Positions 34,617-45,491 of a stretch of DNA of 64,000 bases are shown one piece after another. Position numbers and translations under genes: made by a program. This DNA is from Kribbella sindirgiensis (lineage in GTDB: Bacteria > Actinomycetota > Actinomycetes > Propionibacteriales > Kribbellaceae): positions 434,001-498,000 of the forward strand of contig NZ_SJKA01000007.1 in assembly GCF_004331435.1 (NCBI RefSeq). The letters run 5' to 3'. Position 1 is the first letter of the stretch. The number at the start of each line of letters is the position of its first letter. The notes beneath the pieces are model-generated. The model was not told the DNA's origin. It saw nothing but the letters and a program-made list of their open reading frames with translations, and ran no database searches.

Positions 34617-35236
34617 GTAAGCAGCCCCCGGTGGACGGGTACTGCGAGCAGTGCGGTTTCAGCTACGACACCGGGACCTTGCAGGGGACGGTGACGCTGC
34701 TCGTCCGGCAGTCGGCGGACTGCAGCATGGCGCTGACGAAGGCCGCGGCCGGTCCGGACCCGAACGTGGTGCGGCTGCGGCCGGAGCCGGACGTGTGGTC
34801 GGCGATCGAGTACGCGTGCCACGTGCGCGACGTACTCGAGGTGCAGCGGCTCCGTATCGCGCAGTGCCTGGCTGAGGACCGGCCGGTGTACGCACCGATG
34901 GACCGGACCGGGCGGGTGAAGCAGGAGAAGTACGAGAACCAGGACCCGATGGAGGTCGCGGCCGCGCTGGTGCGGTTCGCGCGCGAGTTCGGGGCGGCGG
35001 CGCGAGTGCTGCAGCCGCAGGAGCTGGGGAAGCTCGGGCTGTACAACTATCCGGTCCGGGCGCCGCGCACGCTGGGCTGGATCATCCGGCACACCGCCCA
35101 CGAGATCCAGCACCACCGCCACGACATCCTCGAGATCCTGGCGAAGGTAGAACCCCCGATCGTCCCCAAGCCTCGTACTGAAGAGAAAGAGGCCGCTGAA
35201 GAAGAGGCTGCTGAAGAAGTCGAGGTCGCCGACTAG
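34613..35236 (+). CDS. DinB-like (DUF664) protein
   Basis: A 207-residue helical-bundle protein of the DinB/YfiT group, with histidines likely to bind metal in [11 protein letters not shown] and [13 protein letters not shown]. Some relatives are thiol-S-transferases in mycothiol-using bacteria; others are undefined. The N-terminus has a CEQC pair and the C-terminus is a Glu-rich tail. The TTG at 34613 (GGGAG seven bases before, overlapping the thiD stop) is preferred; an in-frame ATG at 34589 is possible. Its stop codon shares three bases with that of the convergent ROK gene. Confidence 0.78.
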
Positions 35237-36390
35237 CGCTGGGCGACCCAGGCTGCGATGGCCTGCTCAGTGGTCAGCTGGTCGAGGGCCAGCGCGGCGG
35301 CGCCACGTAGCGGTCCGTCCGGCTGGTAGGTGGCCGGCAGGACCGGTGGGGGAGTACTGCGGTGGAACGTCATCAGACCGCTCTCGTACGCCTCCGCGAA
35401 GGTCTCCTCCGCAGCTGCTCGCAGGGGGATGGCTAGGCCGCCGATCGTGACCACATCCGGGTCGTGCGCGTTGACGAGGCCCGCGATGCCGTAGCCGAGT
35501 GCGGTGACCACCCTGGTCACTGCGGCACGGGCAGCCCGGTCGCCGCGCCGGAGTACCTCTTCGGCGTAGGCAACGGGGTCGTCCGGCGTCGGCTGCTTCA
35601 GGTAGCGGGCCAGGGCGCGTCCGTCGATCTCCAAGTCCCAGCAGCCACGGGCACCGCACGGACAGGTACGGGACCGGTCACCGAAGGGCATGTGGCCGTA
35701 CTCGCCGCCTGCTCCCGACGCGCCCTGTGCCGGCACCCCGTCGATCAGCAGCGTCCCGCCGATCCCCACCTCGATGATCAGGTGTACCGCCGTACCGGCT
35801 CCCGCAGCAGCGCCCGTACGCGCCTCAGCCACCCCACTCAGCGTCGCGTCGTTGCCGGCGAGCAGCGGTACGCCGGTGTCGCCCGTGACCTGTGCAAGGT
35901 CCAGCTCGACCCACTCCAGCGTCGGCGCCTGCATCAGGCGGTTGTCACGGACGGTGCCCGGTACGGCGAGGCTGACCATCTGGAGCCGAGCGCCGTACCG
36001 CTGCTGCGCCTGCTCCACCTCACGCCGCAGGTTGTTCAGCACGACCTGCGCACGCCGACTCCGGTGTCGCCTGTACTGCGGTTCTTGCAGCGACCCGTCG
36101 AGCGCTACCACCGCGCTCCGCCAGCTGCTCTGCCGGAGGTCGAGGGCGAGAACCACAGGTCCCTGAGGGTGCGGCTGCAGCACTGTGGTCGGCCGACCAC
36201 GCCCCTGACTGGGAGCAGGTACCTCAGTCAGCAGTTGTACGTCGCGTAGCCGGGCGGTGACCTCGGTCGCGGAACCCGTGCTCAGCCGCAGCGCCCGCGC
36301 GACCGCGGCCCGTGTGATCCCGGGCTGACGGGTGAGCTGAGTCAGCACGTCCGCAGCCGTCTGCCACTGTCCACGGCGTACTGGAGTCAT
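35233..36390 (-). CDS. ROK family transcriptional regulator
   Basis: A 385-residue ROK protein with an N-terminal winged helix (about residues 8-65, ITRAAVARALRLSTGSATEVTARL) and a sugar-kinase-like domain holding the zinc motif CPCGARGCWD. The usual Glu after GC is replaced by Trp-Asp. It is divergent from a HAD phosphatase and an MFS transporter, with a large palindrome in between, and probably represses them. The ATG at 36390 was preferred to the GTG one codon before. Confidence 0.9.
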   Translation of the reverse strand: MTPVRRGQWQTAADVLTQLTRQPGITRAAVARALRLSTGSATEVTARLRDVQLLTEVPAPSQGRGRPTTVLQPHPQGPVVLALDLRQSSWRSAVVALDGSLQEPQYRRHRSRRAQVVLNNLRREVEQAQQRYGARLQMVSLAVPGTVRDNRLMQAPTLEWVELDLAQVTGDTGVPLLAGNDATLSGVAEARTGAAAGAGTAVHLIIEVGIGGTLLIDGVPAQGASGAGGEYGHMPFGDRSRTCPCGARGCWDLEIDGRALARYLKQPTPDDPVAYAEEVLRRGDRAARAAVTRVVTALGYGIAGLVNAHDPDVVTIGGLAIPLRAAAEETFAEAYESGLMTFHRSTPPPVLPATYQPDGPLRGAAALALDQLTTEQAIAAWVAQR

Positions 36391-36400
36391 CACTGCCCTT

Positions 36401-36431
36401 CCCGTTATGCTCGGAGAACGAGTTTAACGGG
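36401..36431. promoter_or_regulatory. Candidate ROK operator
   Basis: A nested dyad: CCCGTTA/TAACGGG outside (36401-36407 and 36425-36431) and CTCG/CGAG inside (36410-36413 and 36419-36422). The centre is GAGAA. It fills the gap between the divergent ROK and HAD genes and includes the AT-rich step likely used as a promoter. Confidence 0.6.
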
Positions 36432-36438
36432 AGGGGTC

Positions 36439-37059
36439 ATGGAGATCCGGGACATCCGCGCGGTGCTGTTCGACATGGACGGCACGCTGGTCGATTCCGA
36501 CGCGGTCGTCGACCGGAGCTGGGGCCGGTGGGCGACCGAGTACGGTCTGGTGCCGGCCGACGTACTCGCGGTCGCGCACGGGAACCCGGCGATGGCGACC
36601 GTGACGCATTTCCTGCCGGACGCGTCGCCGGCGGAACGGACCGCGGCCTGGGCGCGAGTGTTCGATCTCGAGGTCAACGACGTCGACGGGGTGGTGGCGA
36701 AGCCTGGTGCGCTGGACCTCCTTGGGACGCTCGGGCGGATCGGTGTGCCGTGGGCGGTCTACACCAGTGCGCCGGCCCAACTGGCGAAGGTACGGCTGAC
36801 CGCGGCCGGGATCGCGCCGTCGGTCCTCGTGACGGTCGACGATGTGAGCCGTGGCAAGCCGGACCCGGAGGGGTACCTGCGGGCGGCGGAGCTGCTCGGC
36901 GTACCTGTGACTGAGTGCCTGGTGGTCGAGGACACCGTTGTCGGGTTGTCGGCAGGGCAGGCGTCTGGTGCGCTCACGGCCGGTCTGAAGGGTATTGCGG
37001 CGGATATCGAGCTGGCTGACCTGCACCGGCTCGACACGCTGTTCAAAGGTCTGGAATGA
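36439..37059 (+). CDS. HAD superfamily phosphatase (sugar-phosphatase-like)
   Basis: A 206-residue haloacid-dehalogenase-fold phosphatase. The nucleophile is in motif I FDMDGTLVDSD; the motif II serine/threonine follows in VYTSAPAQ, the lysine in RGKPDPEGY, and the acid pair in VVEDTVVG. It resembles phosphatases that act on sugar phosphates (YfbT type). A strong GGGAGGGG ribosome site precedes the ATG. It overlaps the MFS gene by four bases and is controlled, by inference, by the adjacent ROK protein. Confidence 0.9.
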   Translation: MEIRDIRAVLFDMDGTLVDSDAVVDRSWGRWATEYGLVPADVLAVAHGNPAMATVTHFLPDASPAERTAAWARVFDLEVNDVDGVVAKPGALDLLGTLGRIGVPWAVYTSAPAQLAKVRLTAAGIAPSVLVTVDDVSRGKPDPEGYLRAAELLGVPVTECLVVEDTVVGLSAGQASGALTAGLKGIAADIELADLHRLDTLFKGLE

Positions 37060-38249
37060 CCGCGGGCGCTCAGGCCCCGCCGCGGAGCGGTGCCCGCGGC
37101 GACGAGGTACGCATCGGTATCGCGCTGTCCGCGATGGGGTTCGTGCTGGCCGGGCTCGGTGCGTGTGTGGCGATCCTTGCGCGGGATCTTGACGAGCCGA
37201 CGAGCCGGCTGGCGCTGCTGTCCTCGGGGTTCGCTGTTGGGTTGATGCTGGTCGCGGTGGTTGGTCCGCGGATGCTCAAGCTGTGGTCGATGCCTACGGT
37301 GCTTGGGCTTGGGTCGGTTGTGTGTGCGATGGGTGCGGTCCTCATTGCGGTCGCGCCGGTGTACGCGGTCGCTATCGCCGGCGGGCTGCTGGTTGGGCTT
37401 GGCGGCGCGCTGCTTGTCTTGGTTGCTCCGCTGATGCTCAACGGCCCGACTGCGGCTGCTCGCCTCAGTCGGGTCAACGCGGTCGCCAGCGGGACCGGAA
37501 TCCTGGCGCCGCTGGCTATCGGCACGCTGGACGGTCTCGGTCCGAGCGGCCGGTACGCCATGCTCGCCGCGGCACCTCCCCTCCTTCTCCTAGCAGTACT
37601 GAACCGGCGCTCCAGCCCACTCCAGCCAACAGAGAAAGCGGTGCCGGTGTTGATTGATTCGGCGCCGGCGGTTGGGTTGGGGCGGAAGTGGCGGCGGGTG
37701 GGGCGGCGGGTCGTGATGGACGTCGGCGCGGGGTGGCTCCGGGTTGTGCTCGCGGTGTCGGTCGAGTTCTGCTTCGTGGTGTGGGCGGTGGCGCGGCTGG
37801 TGGCGAGTGGGTTGCCTACTGCGGCGGCCGCGCTGCTCGGCAGTGCGTTCCCGATCGGTATGGCGGTCGGCCGCGCGATCGGACCGATCCGCTACCGCGG
37901 CTGGTCGCCGGTCTTTCCGTCCGGAGCACTCGCCGCCTGCGGCACGCTGCTGGTGAGCCTGTTCGACGCACCGGCCGTGGTCGCGCTCGGCCTGGTCGTA
38001 GCAGGTCTCGGAGTGGCCCCGCTGTACCCGGTAACGCTCGCAGCCCTCGTAGCTATCCCCGGTCTCAGCTCGGCTCGTCTCGCCGCGGTCGGTGCGATGG
38101 CCTCCGGTACGGCGATCCTGGTCGCGCCGGCGCTCCTCGCCGTACTAGCACGTGTCGTCGACCTGCGGACGGCGTACCTGGTGACGTTGCCGCTGATCGC
38201 GATACTTTTTCTGCTCAGCCGTCGATCTGACCGGGCCGCGTTCGTGTAG
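37056..38249 (+). CDS. MFS transporter
   Basis: A 397-residue twelve-helix major facilitator protein without a clear substrate subgroup. The central loop (about residues 190-235) is basic and unusually rich in Arg (GRKWRRVGRRVV). The ATG overlaps the HAD phosphatase stop, so the two are co-translated. A sugar-phosphatase plus exporter pair under ROK control could drain excess sugar phosphate, but that is speculation. Confidence 0.87.
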   Translation: MTAGAQAPPRSGARGDEVRIGIALSAMGFVLAGLGACVAILARDLDEPTSRLALLSSGFAVGLMLVAVVGPRMLKLWSMPTVLGLGSVVCAMGAVLIAVAPVYAVAIAGGLLVGLGGALLVLVAPLMLNGPTAAARLSRVNAVASGTGILAPLAIGTLDGLGPSGRYAMLAAAPPLLLLAVLNRRSSPLQPTEKAVPVLIDSAPAVGLGRKWRRVGRRVVMDVGAGWLRVVLAVSVEFCFVVWAVARLVASGLPTAAAALLGSAFPIGMAVGRAIGPIRYRGWSPVFPSGALAACGTLLVSLFDAPAVVALGLVVAGLGVAPLYPVTLAALVAIPGLSSARLAAVGAMASGTAILVAPALLAVLARVVDLRTAYLVTLPLIAILFLLSRRSDRAAFV

Positions 38250-38287
38250 GGGGTGAACGAGCCCGCAACGACGAACGAGGTGACGTG

Positions 38288-39121
38288 ATGAAGCTTCTGC
38301 TGGACGGCCTGGCCTTTCCCGAAGGAGCACGCTGGCACGACGGCCGGTTGTGGTTCTGCCACTGGATCGCGCAGCAGATCATCGCCGTCGACGCCGACGG
38401 CAAGACCGAGACCTTCGAGGCGCCGGTCGGACGCCTGATGGGTTGGTCCGTCGACTGGCTGCCGGACGGCCGAATGCTGACCACCGGCGACAAACTGCGC
38501 CGGTACGAGCCCGACGGCTCGATCACCGTGCTCGCCGAGCAGGGCGCGAACGAGATCGTGGTGGGTGCCCAGGGCAACATCTATCTGGACGGCGCGGACT
38601 TCGACTTCGCCGGCGGTGCGGAGCCGGTCCCCGGCTGGATCAAGCTGGTCACGCCGGACGGCCAGGCGCGGCAGGTCGCCGGCGACATCCAGTTCCCGAA
38701 CGGGATGGTGCTGACGCCGGACGGCAGGACGCTGGTGATCGCGGAGTCGTTCGCCGGGCGGCTGACCGCGTTCGACGTCGAGCCGGACGGCGGGTTGTCG
38801 AACCGGCGCGTGTACGCCGAGAACCTCGGCCCGGACGGCATCGTCCTCGACGCGGAGGGTGCGATCTGGTCCCAGACCTGGGGTGAGGGCGTGGTCCGCA
38901 TCGCGCCGGACGGCGAGATCCTCGAGCGGATCGAGATCCCCGAGAACCGGGCGCCGTTCTCGCTCGGCCTGGTCGACTTCGACGGTCCGACGCTCTGCAT
39001 CCTGACCGCGGAATGGCGGTCGGACGACAGCATCACCGACAACCTCGACCGCCTCACCAACGGCCCGCGAACCGGTCAGGTCCACACGATTCCGGTCGCC
39101 GTGCCGCCGGTGACCCTCTAA
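38288..39121 (+). CDS. SMP-30/gluconolactonase family protein
   Basis: A 277-residue six-bladed beta-propeller lactonase or related hydrolase. Metal-binding residues fit FPEGARWHDGRLWFCHW at the N-terminus (the Glu), NEIVVG near the centre and the Asn of QFPNGMVL, with Asp in LGPDGIVLD. It is likely cytoplasmic and opens sugar lactones. The ATG at 38288 has GAGGTGA upstream and is preferred to an overlapping GTG. A short hairpin follows the stop. Confidence 0.9.
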   Translation: MKLLLDGLAFPEGARWHDGRLWFCHWIAQQIIAVDADGKTETFEAPVGRLMGWSVDWLPDGRMLTTGDKLRRYEPDGSITVLAEQGANEIVVGAQGNIYLDGADFDFAGGAEPVPGWIKLVTPDGQARQVAGDIQFPNGMVLTPDGRTLVIAESFAGRLTAFDVEPDGGLSNRRVYAENLGPDGIVLDAEGAIWSQTWGEGVVRIAPDGEILERIEIPENRAPFSLGLVDFDGPTLCILTAEWRSDDSITDNLDRLTNGPRTGQVHTIPVAVPPVTL

Positions 39122-39146
39122 CATCGCGGACATGGAGTGCTTCGCC

Positions 39147-39162
39147 GCCGGGCGTACCCGGC
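39147..39162 (+). terminator. Hairpin after the SMP-30 gene
   Basis: GCCGGG and CCCGGC pair around a four-base loop (CGTA) 26 bases after the stop codon, without a T-run. Confidence 0.45.
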
Positions 39163-39248
39163 GCTGATCCCGGACCCATCGCCGCCTGTGCGCGGTGGGC
39201 CGGTCGCGCCTGCCCGGATTTCTCCTTCGCTCGCGAGAGGCACGCTCC

Positions 39249-39731
39249 ATGCACATTCGTTCGTACGTCGACGCTGACCTGGCCCGGCTGATCGACCTCA
39301 CCATCGACACGTTCGGGCCGTTCTACGAGGAATCGTTCCGGCCCCTGGTCGGCGAGCTGATCTTCACCCGCCAGCACGGCGACTGGCGCGGCGACTACCG
39401 CACCCAGGTCGCCGGGTTGCACGATCCCGCCGCACACAAGTACGTCGCCGTTGCCGTCGCAGACGACGTACCCGCCGGGTACGTCGCCTGGTGGCTCGAC
39501 ACCGCCCGCCGGCACGCGACGGTCGAGCTCTTGGCGGTCGCGCGCGAGCATCGCGGGGCCGGCATCGCTACCGCGCTCTGTGAGCACGCGTTCGCGGCGA
39601 TGCGCGCGGCAGGTGCGGAGTACGTCGAGATCGGCACCGGCGGGGACGACTTCCACGCGCCGGCGCGGGCGTTCTACGAATCAATCGGATGTGTGAAATT
39701 GCCGGTGGCGGTGTACTTCCGTGAGCTGTAG
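39249..39731 (+). CDS. GNAT family N-acetyltransferase
   Basis: A 160-residue acetyltransferase. VELLAVAREHRGAGIATALCEHA holds the acetyl-CoA loop, and the fold ends with ARAFYESIGCVKLPVAVYFREL. The ATG at 39249 has GAGAGG upstream; the frame extends 18 codons further without support. It is a single gene with no informative neighbours, so the substrate is unknown. Confidence 0.88.
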   Translation: MHIRSYVDADLARLIDLTIDTFGPFYEESFRPLVGELIFTRQHGDWRGDYRTQVAGLHDPAAHKYVAVAVADDVPAGYVAWWLDTARRHATVELLAVAREHRGAGIATALCEHAFAAMRAAGAEYVEIGTGGDDFHAPARAFYESIGCVKLPVAVYFREL

Positions 39732-39807
39732 TCGAAGCTCACGGGCCGGAGCATGATGGAGGGATCAGGGCTGGGGGCTTTCATCGTGGGCAGGGGGAGG
39801 CATTGCC

Positions 39808-40029
39808 ATGACCGACAACGGGCGGCCGTCGCTGGAAGAGCTGGACGAGTTGCCGGACGAGATGACGCAGGAAGAGCAGGCCGCGTTGCTCGTCGAACCG
39901 AGCTTCGACCACGACATCGACAACGAGGCGGCGGAGCTGGAGGCCGAGTTCGGGCCTGCCGAAGACGGGGAGTACGGGCGGGCGTCGGGCGACCTGGCAC
40001 CGGCGTACACCGGCGAGGCCGGATCATGA
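39808..40029 (+). CDS. Small acidic hypothetical protein coupled to the CHAP hydrolase
   Basis: A 73-residue, very acidic protein (about 22 Asp/Glu against 2-3 basic residues) with no signal or membrane segment. GGGGGAGG precedes the ATG. It overlaps the start of the CHAP hydrolase gene by four bases, so the two are made together. The charge suggests a chaperone, inhibitor or protein-binding role, but I do not recognise the family. Confidence 0.7.
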   Translation: MTDNGRPSLEELDELPDEMTQEEQAALLVEPSFDHDIDNEAAELEAEFGPAEDGEYGRASGDLAPAYTGEAGS

Positions 40030-40769
40030 GCGGCCTCGAGGACATGATCCACACCGCCGAACTCGACCTCGGGCTCGGCGAACCGAACAAGATCCAGAAG
40101 TGGTACCGCGACCGCAACGGCCCGGCGTTCAACGGAAACTTCGCCTGGTGCGACGCATCGATCACGTTCTGGGCGTTCAACTCGGGCAACCACAGCACGG
40201 TCACGTTCGGGAAGGACTTCGCGCTGACCACGGCGCACGCGAAGGCGTTCAAGAACCACGGCCAGTGGCACGTCGACGTCGCGGGGATCCGGCGCGGTGA
40301 CATCGTCTTCTTCGACTGGGACGGCACCGATCTCAAGTCCCGGATCGACCACGTCGGCCTGGTCACCGGGGTCAGCGGCTCGAAGGTCTACACGATCGAG
40401 GGCAACTACAGCAACAAGTGCGGCCGGCACACCCGGATGGCGAGCACGATCGCCGGCTACGGGCGCCCGACGTACGTCCACTCGCCCGGGCCGCGGACCG
40501 GGCTCGTGACGTTCCCCGGCAAGTCGTTCTTCGTGATGGGCCGCAAGAGCCCGATCATCGCGGCGATGCACCAACGGCTCCTGGACGTCGACTGCAACCG
40601 GTACGAAACCCAGACTAACAAGGACACCTGGGGGACCGGCGACCTCAAGTCCTACTCGGCCTGGCAACGGAAACTCGGCTTCCAGGGCTCGGTCGCACAG
40701 CCCGGCAGCGATGCCGACGGAATCCCGGGCAAGCAGACCTGGGACAAGCTCAAGGTCCCCCGCACCTGA
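40026..40769 (+). CDS. CHAP-domain peptidoglycan hydrolase with C-terminal cell-wall-binding domain
   Basis: A 247-residue endolysin-like protein. The CHAP domain (about residues 15-150) has the cysteine nucleophile Cys42 in AWCDAS, the base His109 in DHVGLVTG, and Glu125/Asn127 in EGNYSN. The C-terminal ~70 residues resemble a peptidoglycan-binding domain (GSDADGIPGKQTWDKL). No signal peptide is visible, as in phage lysins that need a holin. No holin or other phage gene is nearby. The partner is the small acidic protein just upstream. Confidence 0.85.
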   Translation: MSGLEDMIHTAELDLGLGEPNKIQKWYRDRNGPAFNGNFAWCDASITFWAFNSGNHSTVTFGKDFALTTAHAKAFKNHGQWHVDVAGIRRGDIVFFDWDGTDLKSRIDHVGLVTGVSGSKVYTIEGNYSNKCGRHTRMASTIAGYGRPTYVHSPGPRTGLVTFPGKSFFVMGRKSPIIAAMHQRLLDVDCNRYETQTNKDTWGTGDLKSYSAWQRKLGFQGSVAQPGSDADGIPGKQTWDKLKVPRT

Positions 40770-40776
40770 ACGACGA

Positions 40777-42351
40777 CTACGGTCTGGCGTGCTTGCCGAC
40801 CATGCGCACCAAGGTGTCCGGCGGGACGACCTTGACGTGAGGGGCGAGTCCGTCGACGACGGAGAGGACGTTGTCGACGGACTTGCTCCACGCGTGCCAG
40901 ACGACGATCGAGTAGCCGGCCGTGGAGAAGGGGTTGCGGGTCGCGGCGTTCAGTTCCGCGGTGACCGAGGCCTCGTCGGCGCCGTCGAGCCCCTCCCAGA
41001 GCATGGTCCGGGCGGAGATCACCGGCTTGCCCTCGGACCAGACGACCTTGCCCTTGAGACCGTCGTACCGCGAGTACTCGAGGTAGATCAGGCCGTCGAT
41101 CTCGGGCCGCTTGAGGTACGACGACCACAGCCGGGTGTTCTCGAACGCGTCGAAGTCGATGATTTGCGCGACCGACAGATCGGACCGCCCCATGGCCCGC
41201 GCGAGGGATGCGGTGTGCTTGTCCAGCGCGGCGGCCGGGTAGCGGCTCGGGTACATGTATCCGCCGCCCGACGGACCGACCACCCAGCGATCCTTGCGCG
41301 ACTGGTCGTAGAACCAGCGCATGACGGACGGTGCGAGATCGATCAGCGACGGTGAGATGCCCCAGCCGAGGTCGACCTCACCCCGGCGCGGGCTCCCGAA
41401 CCACCGCGGATCGGTCGGAAAGTCGCCGAGTGCCCACTGGATGTTGTCGCCGTCGGTGATCAGGAAGCTGACGTAATGCGCGTCGGGATCCGGCGTCGGA
41501 GGTTGCGCCGGGACGTGCTGCGACAGGCGGTCTTCGGTGATGCCTGACAGCACCGAGAGGTTGCGGGCGTGGTCGGCGGGCAGGGCCTTGACGCCGGTGG
41601 CCGAGTTCACGCCGATGAAGGCGTCCTCGCCCGCCGAGGCGTCGCCCCAGCCGATGACCGTGCCGTCGTCGTCCAGCGCGTCGACCACCTCGGCGCGGAA
41701 CTCCGAGTTGCCGTCGAAGAAGGCGAACGTCCCCGCCATCGTGACGTAGTCCCGGAGCCGCTCCGGGATGTCCGCGCGCTGCTCGACCGCGACGTCGTGC
41801 CGCAGCCGGGGCCAGTACGTCTCGAACACCCAGCGGTCGTCCTTGTCCCGCACGTCCAGGACCTTGCGCAATCCGTGCTGGATCGCGAGTGCCTCCAAGC
41901 TTTCCTCGATCGCCACGGCACCCGTGACGCCCGCGAGCGTGGTCGCGACGTTGACCGACGGGGTGCCCGTACGGAAGAGAACATATCCGGTGACGCCGGA
42001 CCGCTGAACGGTTTTCCACAGGTCCCCGGTCCGCGTCCGGACGCCGTACTGCGACACCAGGCCGTCGAGCCAGTGCTGGTACCCGAGCGTCGGCAGGTTC
42101 AGGTACAGCGATTCGCCGCCGCGCCGCGCCATCAGGCCCTGCAGCGTCGTCGCCAGCGTCCGCTCCGGCAGGCTCAGCGTGGACTCGTCGAAGACGTTCA
42201 GCATCCGCGGCCGCTGTCCCTTGGGGTACGCCGACAAGGCCGCCGGAGCGGGCGCGGCGCCGAACGCCAAGGACGGTGAGACGGTCGCGGCCAGACCCAG
42301 GCCGGCGGTGAGGCCCAGCGCGGTACGGCGGGAAAATCGGCGATCGGACAT
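40777..42351 (-). CDS. Secreted GxGYxYP-domain protein (putative glycoside hydrolase)
   Basis: A 524-residue exported protein with a Tat signal (SRRTALGLTAGLGLAATVS, twin arginine at residues 8-9) and the name-giving motif GGGYMYPSRYP near residue 363. The family is predicted to act on polysaccharides but has little biochemistry. The mature part has two domains. It lies close to a sugar ABC importer and a dehydrogenase fusion, which is consistent with a role in glycan use. The next gene on the strand is a HAD phosphatase. Confidence 0.85.
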   Translation of the reverse strand: MSDRRFSRRTALGLTAGLGLAATVSPSLAFGAAPAPAALSAYPKGQRPRMLNVFDESTLSLPERTLATTLQGLMARRGGESLYLNLPTLGYQHWLDGLVSQYGVRTRTGDLWKTVQRSGVTGYVLFRTGTPSVNVATTLAGVTGAVAIEESLEALAIQHGLRKVLDVRDKDDRWVFETYWPRLRHDVAVEQRADIPERLRDYVTMAGTFAFFDGNSEFRAEVVDALDDDGTVIGWGDASAGEDAFIGVNSATGVKALPADHARNLSVLSGITEDRLSQHVPAQPPTPDPDAHYVSFLITDGDNIQWALGDFPTDPRWFGSPRRGEVDLGWGISPSLIDLAPSVMRWFYDQSRKDRWVVGPSGGGYMYPSRYPAAALDKHTASLARAMGRSDLSVAQIIDFDAFENTRLWSSYLKRPEIDGLIYLEYSRYDGLKGKVVWSEGKPVISARTMLWEGLDGADEASVTAELNAATRNPFSTAGYSIVVWHAWSKSVDNVLSVVDGLAPHVKVVPPDTLVRMVGKHARP

Positions 42352-42439
42352 GTGGTGCCTCCAGTGAGCGGCTGGTGGACTGTCCTACGTTGTCAGTTGC
42401 CCGGTGACGATGTCACAGCCTTCACGTCCTTACAAGACC

Positions 42440-43051
42440 TCAGAGGGTGTCTGCCAGGTCATGACGCCGAAACAGCTCGATGAGCGCCGGTACGCCGGCC
42501 GACAGGTCGTACAGCTCCGCGCGCAGCCCGACGCTCGCGGCGCCCTCCACATTGGCCACGTTGTCGTCGATGAACAGCACGGAGGAGGCGGGCAGATCGA
42601 GCGCACCGAGGATCGCCCGGAAGTACGCCGGGTCCGGCTTGGCGAGCCCGAGGTCGCACGAGTAGAACGTCTGGTCGAACCATGCGCCGTACCCGCGCTC
42701 GTCCTGCATGATCGCCCGCCGGTATCCCTGCTGATTGGTCGCCAGGTGGCACCCGATGCCGGCCGCGCGCAGGGACTGGACGAGCGCGATCACCGCGGGC
42801 TCCGCGACGAACCAGCTCCACGGCTCGAGCGCTTCGTCGACGGAAACCGGCGAGTTCCAGCGCCGCAGTACGTCGCCCAGCGCGTCCCGGAAATCGACTT
42901 TCCCGACCAGCGCGGGCTTCTCGGCCGCCATCAGGTCCGCGACGAACGCGTCGCCGTCGGTGGGTACGAGGGAGGTCAAACGGGCCGACCAGTCGCGATC
43001 GGGTCGCTGGACGACCCCGTCGGCGTCGAAGAGGACTGCGCTGGGTCTCAT
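42440..43051 (-). CDS. HAD superfamily phosphatase
   Basis: A 203-residue HAD protein. Motif I is FDADGVV (an Asp-x-Asp core with Ala-Asp), the lysine is in LAKPDPAYF, and the acid pair in FIDDNVANVEGA. Epoxide-hydrolase-like and YihX-type phosphatases resemble it. The start at MRPSAV is preferred, though an ATG six codons earlier is possible. It is divergent from the ABC importer operon, with about 120 bases between. Confidence 0.85.
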   Translation of the reverse strand: MRPSAVLFDADGVVQRPDRDWSARLTSLVPTDGDAFVADLMAAEKPALVGKVDFRDALGDVLRRWNSPVSVDEALEPWSWFVAEPAVIALVQSLRAAGIGCHLATNQQGYRRAIMQDERGYGAWFDQTFYSCDLGLAKPDPAYFRAILGALDLPASSVLFIDDNVANVEGAASVGLRAELYDLSAGVPALIELFRRHDLADTL

Positions 43052-43171
43052 GGCATCCCATCTTGTCATCGGAGGCTTGACCGGTTCAGTCGGTATGCGC
43101 TTACCTAATGGCTACGTAAACATATGTGGACACCTTCCGGCGAAAACCAACAGAAAGCGCCAGGTGAGGTT

Positions 43172-44446
43172 ATGACCCTGAGCAGAAGGCACTTCCTCGC
43201 GGCCGGCTCCGCCGTCGCCGCCGCGGGTCTCACCGGCTGCGGATCCCGCAGCTCGCTGGGCGGATCGAACGAGCTCAGCATGTGGACCTGGGTCGGGTCC
43301 GTCAACGACGACCTGATCGGCCAGGCGGAGAAGGCGATTCCCGGGTACGACGGCATGAAGCTGGCAATGACCCGGATCGGCTCCAACTACAAGACCAAGG
43401 TGCTGACCGCCCTGGCCGGCAAGTCCCTGGTCCCGGACATCGTCGCGATCAACGACGACGTCGCGACGTACTTCCCGAACGCGGACCAGTTCCACGACCT
43501 GTACGACCTCGGCGCGAAGGAGCTGGAGAAGGACTTCCTGCCCTGGAAGTGGAAGTGGGGGGTCACGCCGCAGGGCAAGATGATGGCCTACCCGATGGAC
43601 ACCGGGCCGACCGCGTTGTTCTACCGGACCGACATCTTCCAGAAGGCGGGCGTCGACATCGACCCGGCCGCGGTTGCGGGGATCGCCCCGGACTGGGACG
43701 CCTTCATCACGCTCGGCAAGAAGCTCAAGCAGGCCGTGCCCGGCTCCGCGATCACCGACAACATCACCAGTATCTACGGCTACCGGATGGCGCAGCAGTC
43801 CAAGCGCTACATGACGCCGGACGGCCAGTACCTGGGCGATCAGGACCACGTCCGGCAATCGTTCGATCTCGCGGTCCGGGTGGTCAAGGAAGGGCTCTCG
43901 GCCAACGCCCAGAACTCGACCGACAAGAACGCGGTCGTCACCAACGGCCAGCTCGTCGCGTACAACGGGGCCGTCTGGTGGGCGCAGCTCGGGCCGAAGA
44001 ACGCGGCGCCGAAGACCAAGGGACTCTGGCGGGTGACGGCGGCTCCTGGTGGCGCCGGCAACAAGGGCGGGTCCTTCCTGGCGATCACGAAGTACTGCAA
44101 GAACCCGAAGGCGGCGTTCGCGTTCATCAGCTGGCTGGAGTCGGCGAAGAACCAGGCCCAGGCGTTCCTGGACCCGGTGCTGTTCCCGTCCACGCCGGCC
44201 AGCTACACCGACTCGCGGCTGAGTGCGCCGGATCCGTTCTTCGGCGGTCAGAAGATCGTCGACGTGTTCGCGGAGTCCGCGAAGAAGTACCCGGGCGCGT
44301 ACTTCTCGCCGTACGACACCATCATCGACACCCCGATCGGCGCCGAACTGGTGAACGTCGAGGCGTCCGGCAAGGACCCGGATCAGGCCTGGGCCGACGC
44401 CCAGCACCAGATCGAACGCGAACTGACCCGAGCGGGGGCGATCTGA
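43172..44446 (+). CDS. ABC sugar importer, substrate-binding lipoprotein
   Basis: A 424-residue extracellular solute-binding protein, family 1. The signal contains a twin arginine (residues 5-6) and a lipobox ending in Cys23 (LTGC), so it is probably a Tat-exported lipoprotein on the outer face. The mature part has the two-lobed fold (ELSMWTWVG, DIVAINDDVATYF, YPMDTGPTALFYRTDIF). The ATG at 43172 has AGGTGAGG upstream. It is the first gene of a four-gene operon; cellobiose-type (CebE) or related sugars are likely cargo. Confidence 0.93.
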   Translation: MTLSRRHFLAAGSAVAAAGLTGCGSRSSLGGSNELSMWTWVGSVNDDLIGQAEKAIPGYDGMKLAMTRIGSNYKTKVLTALAGKSLVPDIVAINDDVATYFPNADQFHDLYDLGAKELEKDFLPWKWKWGVTPQGKMMAYPMDTGPTALFYRTDIFQKAGVDIDPAAVAGIAPDWDAFITLGKKLKQAVPGSAITDNITSIYGYRMAQQSKRYMTPDGQYLGDQDHVRQSFDLAVRVVKEGLSANAQNSTDKNAVVTNGQLVAYNGAVWWAQLGPKNAAPKTKGLWRVTAAPGGAGNKGGSFLAITKYCKNPKAAFAFISWLESAKNQAQAFLDPVLFPSTPASYTDSRLSAPDPFFGGQKIVDVFAESAKKYPGAYFSPYDTIIDTPIGAELVNVEASGKDPDQAWADAQHQIERELTRAGAI

Positions 44447-44447
44447 C

Positions 44448-45491
44448 ATGGCTGTCACCAGCAAGACGGCCCCGGCCGCCATCACCCGGCCGTCCGCCGC
44501 CGCGGAGAAGCCGCCGAACAAGTACCGGCAGGCGTTCCCGCAGTACGCCGCGGTCTCGCCGTTCTTCATCCTGTTCGCGATCTTCGGCGCGTTCCCGGTG
44601 CTGTTCTCGATCTGGATCTCGTTCCACTCCTGGGACGGCATCGGGCAGATGAAGTGGGTCGGCCTCGAGCAGTACCGCTACCTGCTCACCGACGAGACGT
44701 TCTGGAAGACCATCGGCAACACGATGATCATCTGGGTGCTCTCGACGGTCCCGATGCTGCTGCTGGCGCTGGTGATCGCCAACGCCCTGCACAACGCGAC
44801 CCGGTTGCGCACCTTCTACCGGATCGCCTACTTCATCCCGAACGTCACCTCGGTGGTCGCGATCACCCTGGTGTTCGGCTCGATCTTCAGCAACAACTTC
44901 GGCCTGCTGAACGCGTTCCTGCGCTCGATCGGCGTCGGCGAGGTGCAATGGCTGACCTCGCCGTGGGGGATCAAGATCGCGATCGCCACCATCGTCACCT
45001 GGCGCTGGGTCGGCTACAACGCGATCATCTACCTGGCCGGCCTGCAGGCGATCTCCGCCGACGTGTACGAGGCCGCCAAGGTGGACGGCGCGAGCCCGCG
45101 GCAGACGTTCTGGCGGATCACCGTCCCGATGATGCGGCCGGTGATCCTGTTCACCGCGGTCACCTCGACGATCGGCGGACTGCAGATCTTCACCGAGTCC
45201 CGGGTGCTGTTCGGCGACACCTCGAACATCGGCGGCCCCGGCGACGCCGGCCTGACCATCGTGTCGTACCTGTACCAGAGCGCGTTCATCAAGAACCAGT
45301 TCGGGTACGGCGCCGCGATCGGCTGGGCGCTGTTCATCCTGATCGTGCTGTTCAGCATCATCAACTGGCGGCTGATCGGCGGAAACGACGACGAACGACT
45401 GACCCGACGCGCCGCTCGGCGGGTGGAACGCAGGATCGCAGCCCAGAATGCCAAGAGGGAGGCCGCAGATGTCCATGCAAACGTCGACTGA
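44448..45491 (+). CDS. ABC sugar importer permease, MalF/CebF type
   Basis: A 347-residue permease with six core helices and a cytoplasmic N-terminal extension of ~28 residues. The EAA loop is VYEAAKVDGASPRQTFWRI, typical of CebF-like permeases. It starts two bases after the binding protein gene and overlaps the next permease by 23 bases. The C-terminal tail is highly basic (RRAARRVERRIAAQNAKRE). Confidence 0.94.
   Translation: MAVTSKTAPAAITRPSAAAEKPPNKYRQAFPQYAAVSPFFILFAIFGAFPVLFSIWISFHSWDGIGQMKWVGLEQYRYLLTDETFWKTIGNTMIIWVLSTVPMLLLALVIANALHNATRLRTFYRIAYFIPNVTSVVAITLVFGSIFSNNFGLLNAFLRSIGVGEVQWLTSPWGIKIAIATIVTWRWVGYNAIIYLAGLQAISADVYEAAKVDGASPRQTFWRITVPMMRPVILFTAVTSTIGGLQIFTESRVLFGDTSNIGGPGDAGLTIVSYLYQSAFIKNQFGYGAAIGWALFILIVLFSIINWRLIGGNDDERLTRRAARRVERRIAAQNAKREAADVHANVD

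Follow-up and report, generated by a model that had tools for sequence, protein, structure and literature searches.

What a small acidic protein does for an endolysin-like hydrolase whose gene it overlaps, and why a bacterium keeps the two, is the question raised by a gene pair in the chromosome of the soil bacterium Kribbella sindirgiensis. We analyzed this pair within a stretch of 64,000 nucleotides (the window, meaning the whole of that stretch), for which an earlier note had proposed that the acidic protein either holds the hydrolase inactive or carries it. The features of the locus are as follows, with the basis of each in brackets:

39763–39787, + strand: GATCAGGGCTGGGGGCTTTCATCGT, conserved upstream block, candidate control region of the pair (13-genome alignment, pattern search)
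39792–39800, + strand: AGGGGGAGG, Shine-Dalgarno-like site, 7 bases 5' of the acidic ORF (read in the sequence)
39808–40029, + strand: gene of the small acidic partner (73 aa), homologous to gp34 of the Streptomyces phage LazerLemon (ORF and profile comparison)
39865–39978, + strand: conserved core of the acidic protein, residues 20–57 (invariant columns of the alignment)
40026–40029, + strand: ATGA stop/start overlap, coupled translation expected (read in the sequence; kept in the Kribbella copies)
40026–40769, + strand: endolysin-type CHAP hydrolase, 247 aa (ORF, domain and phage-endolysin matches)
40137–40406, + strand: CHAP catalytic domain, residues 38–127 (PF05257 profile match)
40512–40757, + strand: C-terminal PG_bind_siph cell-wall-binding domain, residues 163–244 (NF038080 match)

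The gene pair and its chromosomal setting

The coordinates of the 73-residue strongly acidic ORF and of the CHAP and wall-binding hydrolase, overlapping by four bases, proved exact. The hydrolase matched CHAP (PF05257) with an E-value of 1.2e-7 and 32.5 bits, above the Pfam cut-off of 26, and PG_bind_siph (NF038080) with 1e-23 and 83.4 bits, above the cut-off of 55, as well as PHROG endolysin families with E-values down to 2.4e-33. C42, H109 and E125/N127, which from CHAP domains generally we take to be the candidate catalytic residues, are all invariant across the 13 Kribbella lysin copies. The hydrolase had been described as lacking a signal peptide, and indeed none was seen; a strongly hydrophobic 19-residue stretch is likewise absent from both proteins. 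Solved structural relatives of the lysin were limited to two weak matches (7cfl, E 0.055; 3npf, E 0.56), and none of use was obtained for the acidic protein.

The acidic protein has a computed charge of about −20 and a pI of about 4, and its core follows the pattern QEEQA..LL....(N/D)E...L...FG....G.YG with two predicted helices and a turn. Searches of Pfam and NCBIfam returned zero matches, and among the PHROGs none of known function was matched by it or by LazerLemon gp34, the lone weak match of the Kribbella protein being phrog_30270 (E 0.008, function unassigned). Modeled alone with AlphaFold, it is predicted to form three helices at a mean pLDDT of 69, where helices 21–29 and 37–48 reach moderate confidence. 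A lone 73-residue acidic ORF at 69% GC would be unremarkable; it is the linkage, the dN/dS values and the phage homologues described below that set this ORF apart.

The nine neighboring genes (35233–45491) encode a ROK protein, a HAD protein, an MFS-like protein, an SGL protein, a GNAT protein, a GxGYxYP hydrolase, a second HAD protein, an ABC solute-binding protein and an ABC permease. Their PHROG matches (E ≤ 0.001) were to HAD hydrolase, acetyltransferase or unknown-function families, with no structural, lysis or integration genes among the nine at this threshold, and no tRNA lies within the 64-kb window. The holin family phrog_9752, the LazerLemon type and the one holin family covered, was found in none of the 13 pair-bearing genomes and in two of the 38 Kribbella genomes overall, an absence that is consistent with a holin-free unit as far as this one family goes. 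The earlier statement that no holin, tail or integrase gene is near therefore stands, all nine neighbors being ordinary chromosomal genes, whereas the phrase 'no phage context' is correct for the neighborhood and wrong for the pair, which is itself phage-type. As phage-specific genes are missing among the nine neighbors and phrog_9752 is absent, we label the enzyme a captured endolysin rather than a phage endolysin.

In the alignment the upstream block is conserved in most of the 13 pair-bearing genomes and diverged in a relocated copy (G005), and a G-rich site similar to the Shine-Dalgarno-like site of the window precedes the acidic ORF in most Kribbella copies. Searching 17 genomes with up to 3 mismatches placed the block pattern before the pair in 9 of the 13 pair-bearing genomes and in none of the 4 pair-free ones; elsewhere in the 17 genomes it matched at two sites with 3 mismatches each, and a reversed control pattern gave 0 matches. 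A regulon for this block was considered and rejected, no other convincing site having been found in the 17 genomes searched. A longer upstream pattern had no match, the window's own site included, which differs from it at 4 positions, and no sigma-70-like promoter was found upstream of the pair.

Related pairs in phages, viral contigs and plasmids

A tblastn search with the lysin matched 102 of 50,697 phage records. Eleven Streptomyces phage endolysins were 52–58% identical to the hydrolase over 99% of its length, the closest being LazerLemon gp35 (LL35lys) at 58%; among the 60 of 102 matches listed, other phage records covering most of the query were 24–31% identical, and Galactica reached 62.7% in the wall-binding domain only. 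The loci of 12 of the 102 matched records were inspected (the 11 close ones and Shady), with Che8 added separately. In all 11 Streptomyces phages an acidic gene of 67–69 aa overlaps the endolysin start by 4 bases, which in phage Stuff holds only with the endolysin start 18 bases 5' of the annotated one. The order in LazerLemon is gp33, the acidic gp34 (67 aa), the endolysin gp35 overlapping it by the same 4 bases, gp36 and the holin gp37 (phrog_9752). LazerLemon and the 10 further phages thus share gene order, homologous genes and the 4-base overlap with Kribbella, whereas the phage pair sits among tail and lysis genes and the Kribbella pair alone in the chromosome. The gene 5' of the acidic one in LazerLemon, gp33 (L041:5317–5799), is called 'hydrolase' in several sister phages and is possibly a second wall enzyme; the Kribbella pair has no gp33-like gene next to it.

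When the acidic protein of the window was compared directly with the phage records by tblastn, nothing matched, and the homology of the acidic proteins is hence based on profiles and position. With Z fixed at 1e6, the Kribbella acidic HMM detected 11 of 11 phage acidic proteins (E 2e-8 to 5.5e-3) and the phage HMM all 13 Kribbella proteins (E 7e-6 to 0.017). LazerLemon gp34, searched against the 50,697 phage records, matched 11 of them, and these are precisely the records with a lysin more than 50% identical over its length; for many other phage CHAP lysins, no member of the acidic family could be detected.

Viral contigs searched with the acidic module alone gave matches in 67 stretches, six of which were confirmed, all six with a CHAP lysin: four are in-frame fusions at the lysin N terminus (L065, L066, L139, L140) and two are separate pairs overlapping by 4 bases (L143, L144). 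Duplicates were counted once (L066 and L084 are one sequence, L067/L085 and L069/L086 the same matches from two collections, and L141/L142 the same contigs as L066/L065). One open frame spans both the acidic module and the CHAP lysin in L065 and L066, with a single Shine-Dalgarno-like site, located before the acidic part, and with the usual lysin start missing; a lysin start at an internal ATG may exist in both. A 127-aa hydrophobic protein, holin-like by eye, is encoded 3' of the fused gene in L139 (3827–4210) and L140 (3791–4174). Actinomadura parmotrematis (L089) carries a further fusion with a divergent acidic form, whose acidic part matches the Actinomadura type with an E-value of 3e-13. 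The position of the module directly before the lysin N terminus in these fusions is at most suggestive of N-terminal binding. An AlphaFold model of a natural fusion reached a mean pLDDT of 66 and left the block of residues 1–70 undocked at pLDDT 26–58, on an alignment that was shallow and partly misaligned.

In L067, L069, L087, L068 and L093 the acidic ORF is separate and overlaps the start of the lysin by 4 bases; in L083, L088 and L091 it does so by 1 base. The acidic ORFs of L068, L088, L091 and L093 are of the divergent, Actinomadura-type form, whose E-values of 7 to 61 at Z 1e6 do no more than suggest homology to the main acidic family. In L092 the short acidic ORF that ends just 5' of the lysin is unrelated, and no acidic ORF was found before the lysin in L090. 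Plasmids carried both genes with 4-base overlaps in all three records inspected (the top 3 of 55 matched), in one of them with the lysin start 30 bases 5' of the annotated one; one of the three is named phiM2. The close relatives seen outside Kribbella come from phages, plasmids, viral contigs, or bacterial contigs partly coinciding with contigs of the viral collection. Separately, in Mobiluncus (L098:5895–6014) a 39-aa ORF that is acidic but unrelated in sequence lies close to where a CHAP lysin frame begins, a hint that acidic ORFs before lysins may be a wider habit.

One occurrence of the acidic core stood apart from any lysin. In G338 (L138:9635–11080, − strand) the core (TGN...DEEAELLEKEFGAPDAQGIYGAP) lies at the C-terminal end of a membrane protein of 481 aa that has no Pfam match; no lysin is nearby, and the relatives of the protein's body were three plasmid-collection records and no phage. 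This was one of 393 other genomes in the class sample, with at most 14 first-look candidates scored per genome; as it occurs without a lysin, the acidic module may serve proteins other than lysins.

Distribution and evolution in Kribbella

Lysin matches were obtained in 18 of the 38 Kribbella genomes, 13 of them at 79–100% identity over nearly the full length and five at 30–42% over parts only. The acidic family (E ≤ 0.001) was found in 13 of the 38, exactly those with the lysin, and lies directly 5' of it with a 4-base overlap in every copy (ATGA in 12, GTGA in one). The Kribbellaceae sample consists of one genus, so that the family-level search covers the same genomes as the genus-level one; in the 293 genomes covered for the order, the best lysin matches from outside Kribbella had no more than an E-value of 4e-16 and 34% identity. 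Homologues are not confined to prophages: in Kribbella the copies sit in the chromosome, apart from phage genes.

Twelve of the 13 copies share one neighborhood, with SGL and usually also GNAT ahead of the pair and GxGYxYP or HAD behind it, and 3–6 kb of extra DNA separates the lysin from GxGYxYP in five genomes. By eye, the lysin–GxGYxYP gap of G032 (L030:5728–8004) contains HNH-repeat-like and IS3-type transposase-like ORFs. In the remaining genome, G005, both genes lie together at another site and the original site is empty. The site was inspected in 11 of the 25 pair-free genomes: eight were empty, two (G003, G015) were without GNAT there and one (G020) had GNAT alone. In the nine genomes with an empty site (the eight and G005), GNAT adjoins GxGYxYP (six) or HAD (three) with gaps of 21–338 bases, and no remnant of the pair was detected at these sites, the best match being 19 bases at the end of the GNAT gene in G022 (E 2e-4). 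A tree of the two flanking proteins, with moderate support at several nodes, assigns the pair to a crown group in which several losses are probable, apparently in G033, G013, G022 and G002. In the lysin tree, also of moderate support at several nodes, the relocated G005 copy groups with G021.

The median dN/dS over 78 comparisons was 0.255 for the lysin and 0.34 for the acidic gene (0.41 in the N-terminal part, 0.23 in the 45-column core and 0.84 in the C-terminal part); purifying selection acts on both genes. Distances for the acidic gene and for the lysin correlate beyond those of the flanking proteins (partial r 0.63, P 0.0002; 5,000 permutations, 12 genomes), in a partial Mantel test that is known to be lenient and between adjacent genes that share a recombination history. 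The view of the two genes as a unit is thus borne out by the linkage in 13 of 13 copies, the identical presence and absence, the one joint relocation, the 11 of 11 phage records and the in-frame fusions. A unit whose members are gained, lost, moved and sometimes fused together suggests that the acidic protein is a dedicated helper of the enzyme.

A second type of lysin pair was present in three Kribbella genomes:

L114:10780–11762: second-type lysin pair of G007
L116:9832–10623: second-type lysin pair of G030
L115:14638–15411: second-type lysin pair of G036

Here an acidic ORF of 46–49 aa and of unrelated sequence forms an ATGA overlap with a CHAP lysin, which is about 40% identical to the first-type lysin over part of its length. 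G007 and G030 have the pair at a shared site and G036 at a different one, with no phage-like neighbor seen in any of the three. Full-length phage relatives of this lysin were at most 40% identical among the matches listed; nine further phage records matched at 60–80% identity over an unstated share of its length.

Possible roles of the acidic partner

The phage enzyme closest to the Kribbella lysin has been characterized without its partner. According to PMC11705968, LazerLemon gp35 was made alone in E. coli at 14–16 mg per litre, degrades peptidoglycan in zymograms and clears S. griseus lawns, and the purified protein easily precipitated and gave a negative lane, per a figure legend. Catalysis thus proceeds without the partner, and there is nothing that calls for a guard, which makes a chaperone or escort the likelier role. 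Searches of the open-licence PMC literature yielded no function in print for LazerLemon gp34 ('gp34' is absent from the main text of PMC11705968), no paper on an endolysin of Kribbella, no description of the acidic family among the papers listed on acidic proteins or endolysin inhibitors and chaperones, and, by title, nothing on Kribbella prophage lysins or domesticated actinobacterial endolysins.

A model for such a role is offered by Gp1 of mycobacteriophage Ms6, which binds the first 60 residues of the endolysin LysA and aids its holin-independent export via the Sec system, LysA being unstable without Gp1 (PMC6116114 and PMC3111421). We judge it somewhat probable that the Kribbella pair is a phage-captured lysin with a dedicated acidic partner, acting as a chaperone or escort like Gp1 without being similar to it in sequence. 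A two-gene piece of a phage lysis cassette would have entered the chromosome of a Kribbella ancestor, the direction of capture being presumed, and would have been retained there by selection. Coupled translation would bring the two products together, and the acidic partner would most likely bind the newly made endolysin, keep it stable and soluble and assist it in reaching the wall, much as LysA is assisted by Gp1; the host might then use the pair for controlled lysis or wall opening. What the partner probably provides is stability, solubility or delivery, and an escort role could explain why the pair is kept without a holin. The earlier suggestion that the acidic protein carries the hydrolase gains some slight weight from the Gp1 analogy. 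Electrostatic masking of a basic lysin is plausible in the phages, where the lysin charge is +10 to +14 and that of the partner −10.5 to −15.4; we rejected it, as the Kribbella lysin (+7 to −5.5) falls to −5.5 while its partner (−11 to −22) stays acidic.

The cytoplasm contains no assembled peptidoglycan substrate for a lysin, which argues against a guard, that is, an acidic protein inhibiting the endolysin in the cytoplasm until a trigger removes it. In the fused forms, moreover, such an inhibitor would be held permanently in cis on the enzyme. Overproduced by itself in E. coli, the 58%-identical phage enzyme proved active (PMC11705968), so that the earlier idea of a hydrolase held inactive loses ground. 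We regard it as unlikely, even though a guard would fit the strict linkage, the joint absence of acidic gene and lysin and the strong acidity beside a mostly basic lysin, and the Ms6 authors (PMC3111421) also weigh whether Gp1 keeps the lysin inactive. The same authors discuss translational coupling as an alternative for Gp1, and the ATGA or GTGA overlap in 13 of 13 Kribbella copies, with 4- or 1-base overlaps elsewhere, would be expected if the acidic ORF were a leader only, setting lysin translation by stop/start coupling and encoding a functionless product. Protein-level conservation (dN/dS 0.34, core 0.23), homology of the acidic proteins from phage to Kribbella and the retention of the acidic module as protein in the in-frame fusions make this explanation quite unlikely.

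The G338 membrane protein, ending in the same core with no lysin near, would instead agree with the acidic module being a general tag for docking or degradation that a host factor recognizes, rather than a lysin partner, as would the shortness of the conserved core and the poor conservation of the ends. A free-standing protein makes a poor tag, however; the lysin-free occurrence is confined to one of 393 class-sample genomes (at most 14 candidates scored in each), and all phage, viral-contig and Kribbella occurrences found accompany a CHAP lysin, leaving this reading improbable. That the pair is a neutral leftover from a decayed prophage and serves no role today is highly improbable: the genes are of phage type, patchy in presence (13 of 38 genomes) and apparently lost in four, but ORFs, catalytic residues and overlap are intact in all 13 copies, dN/dS is well below 1 for both genes, the upstream block is conserved, and no half-decayed pair was seen at the nine empty sites inspected.

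A broader and less probable scenario can be put forward tentatively. An unnamed acidic escort family, unrelated to Gp1, might give the CHAP endolysins of actinobacterial phages a holin-free way across the membrane, and Kribbella might have acquired such units at least twice, with unrelated partners (type A at this locus, type B in G007, G030 and G036), as host-controlled lysis devices. Few phages have been shown to possess endolysin helpers besides holins, and a second, sequence-unrelated family of small acidic helpers with overlapping genes, fusions and bacterial pairs would, if true, render the commonness of holin-independent delivery in actinobacterial phages testable, with the Kribbella pair as a concrete case for why bacteria keep captured lysins.

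Compared with known systems, the Kribbella pair resembles Ms6 Gp1–LysA (cluster F1, e.g. Che8 gp31–gp32) in combining a small low-pI protein with an overlapping stop/start and an endolysin without a signal peptide, whereas LysA is an amidase and the Kribbella lysin a CHAP enzyme. Che8 gp31, taken as the Gp1 homologue by position and cluster and the one representative compared, has a charge of −3.5, far less acidic than the Kribbella protein, and gave an HMM score of −1.9 and an hhalign probability of 0.1% against the acidic family; as no detectable sequence is shared with it, we do not class the acidic protein as a Gp1 member. In the multi-gene endolysin PlyC the second subunit binds the wall. 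Two genes serve one lysin function there as well; unlike PlyC, the Kribbella enzyme itself carries a binding domain, and no known domain is present in its acidic partner. Toxin–antitoxin and effector–immunity pairs, finally, imply a need for neutralization, which is disfavored here by the overproduction of LL35lys without its partner and by the fusions in cis.
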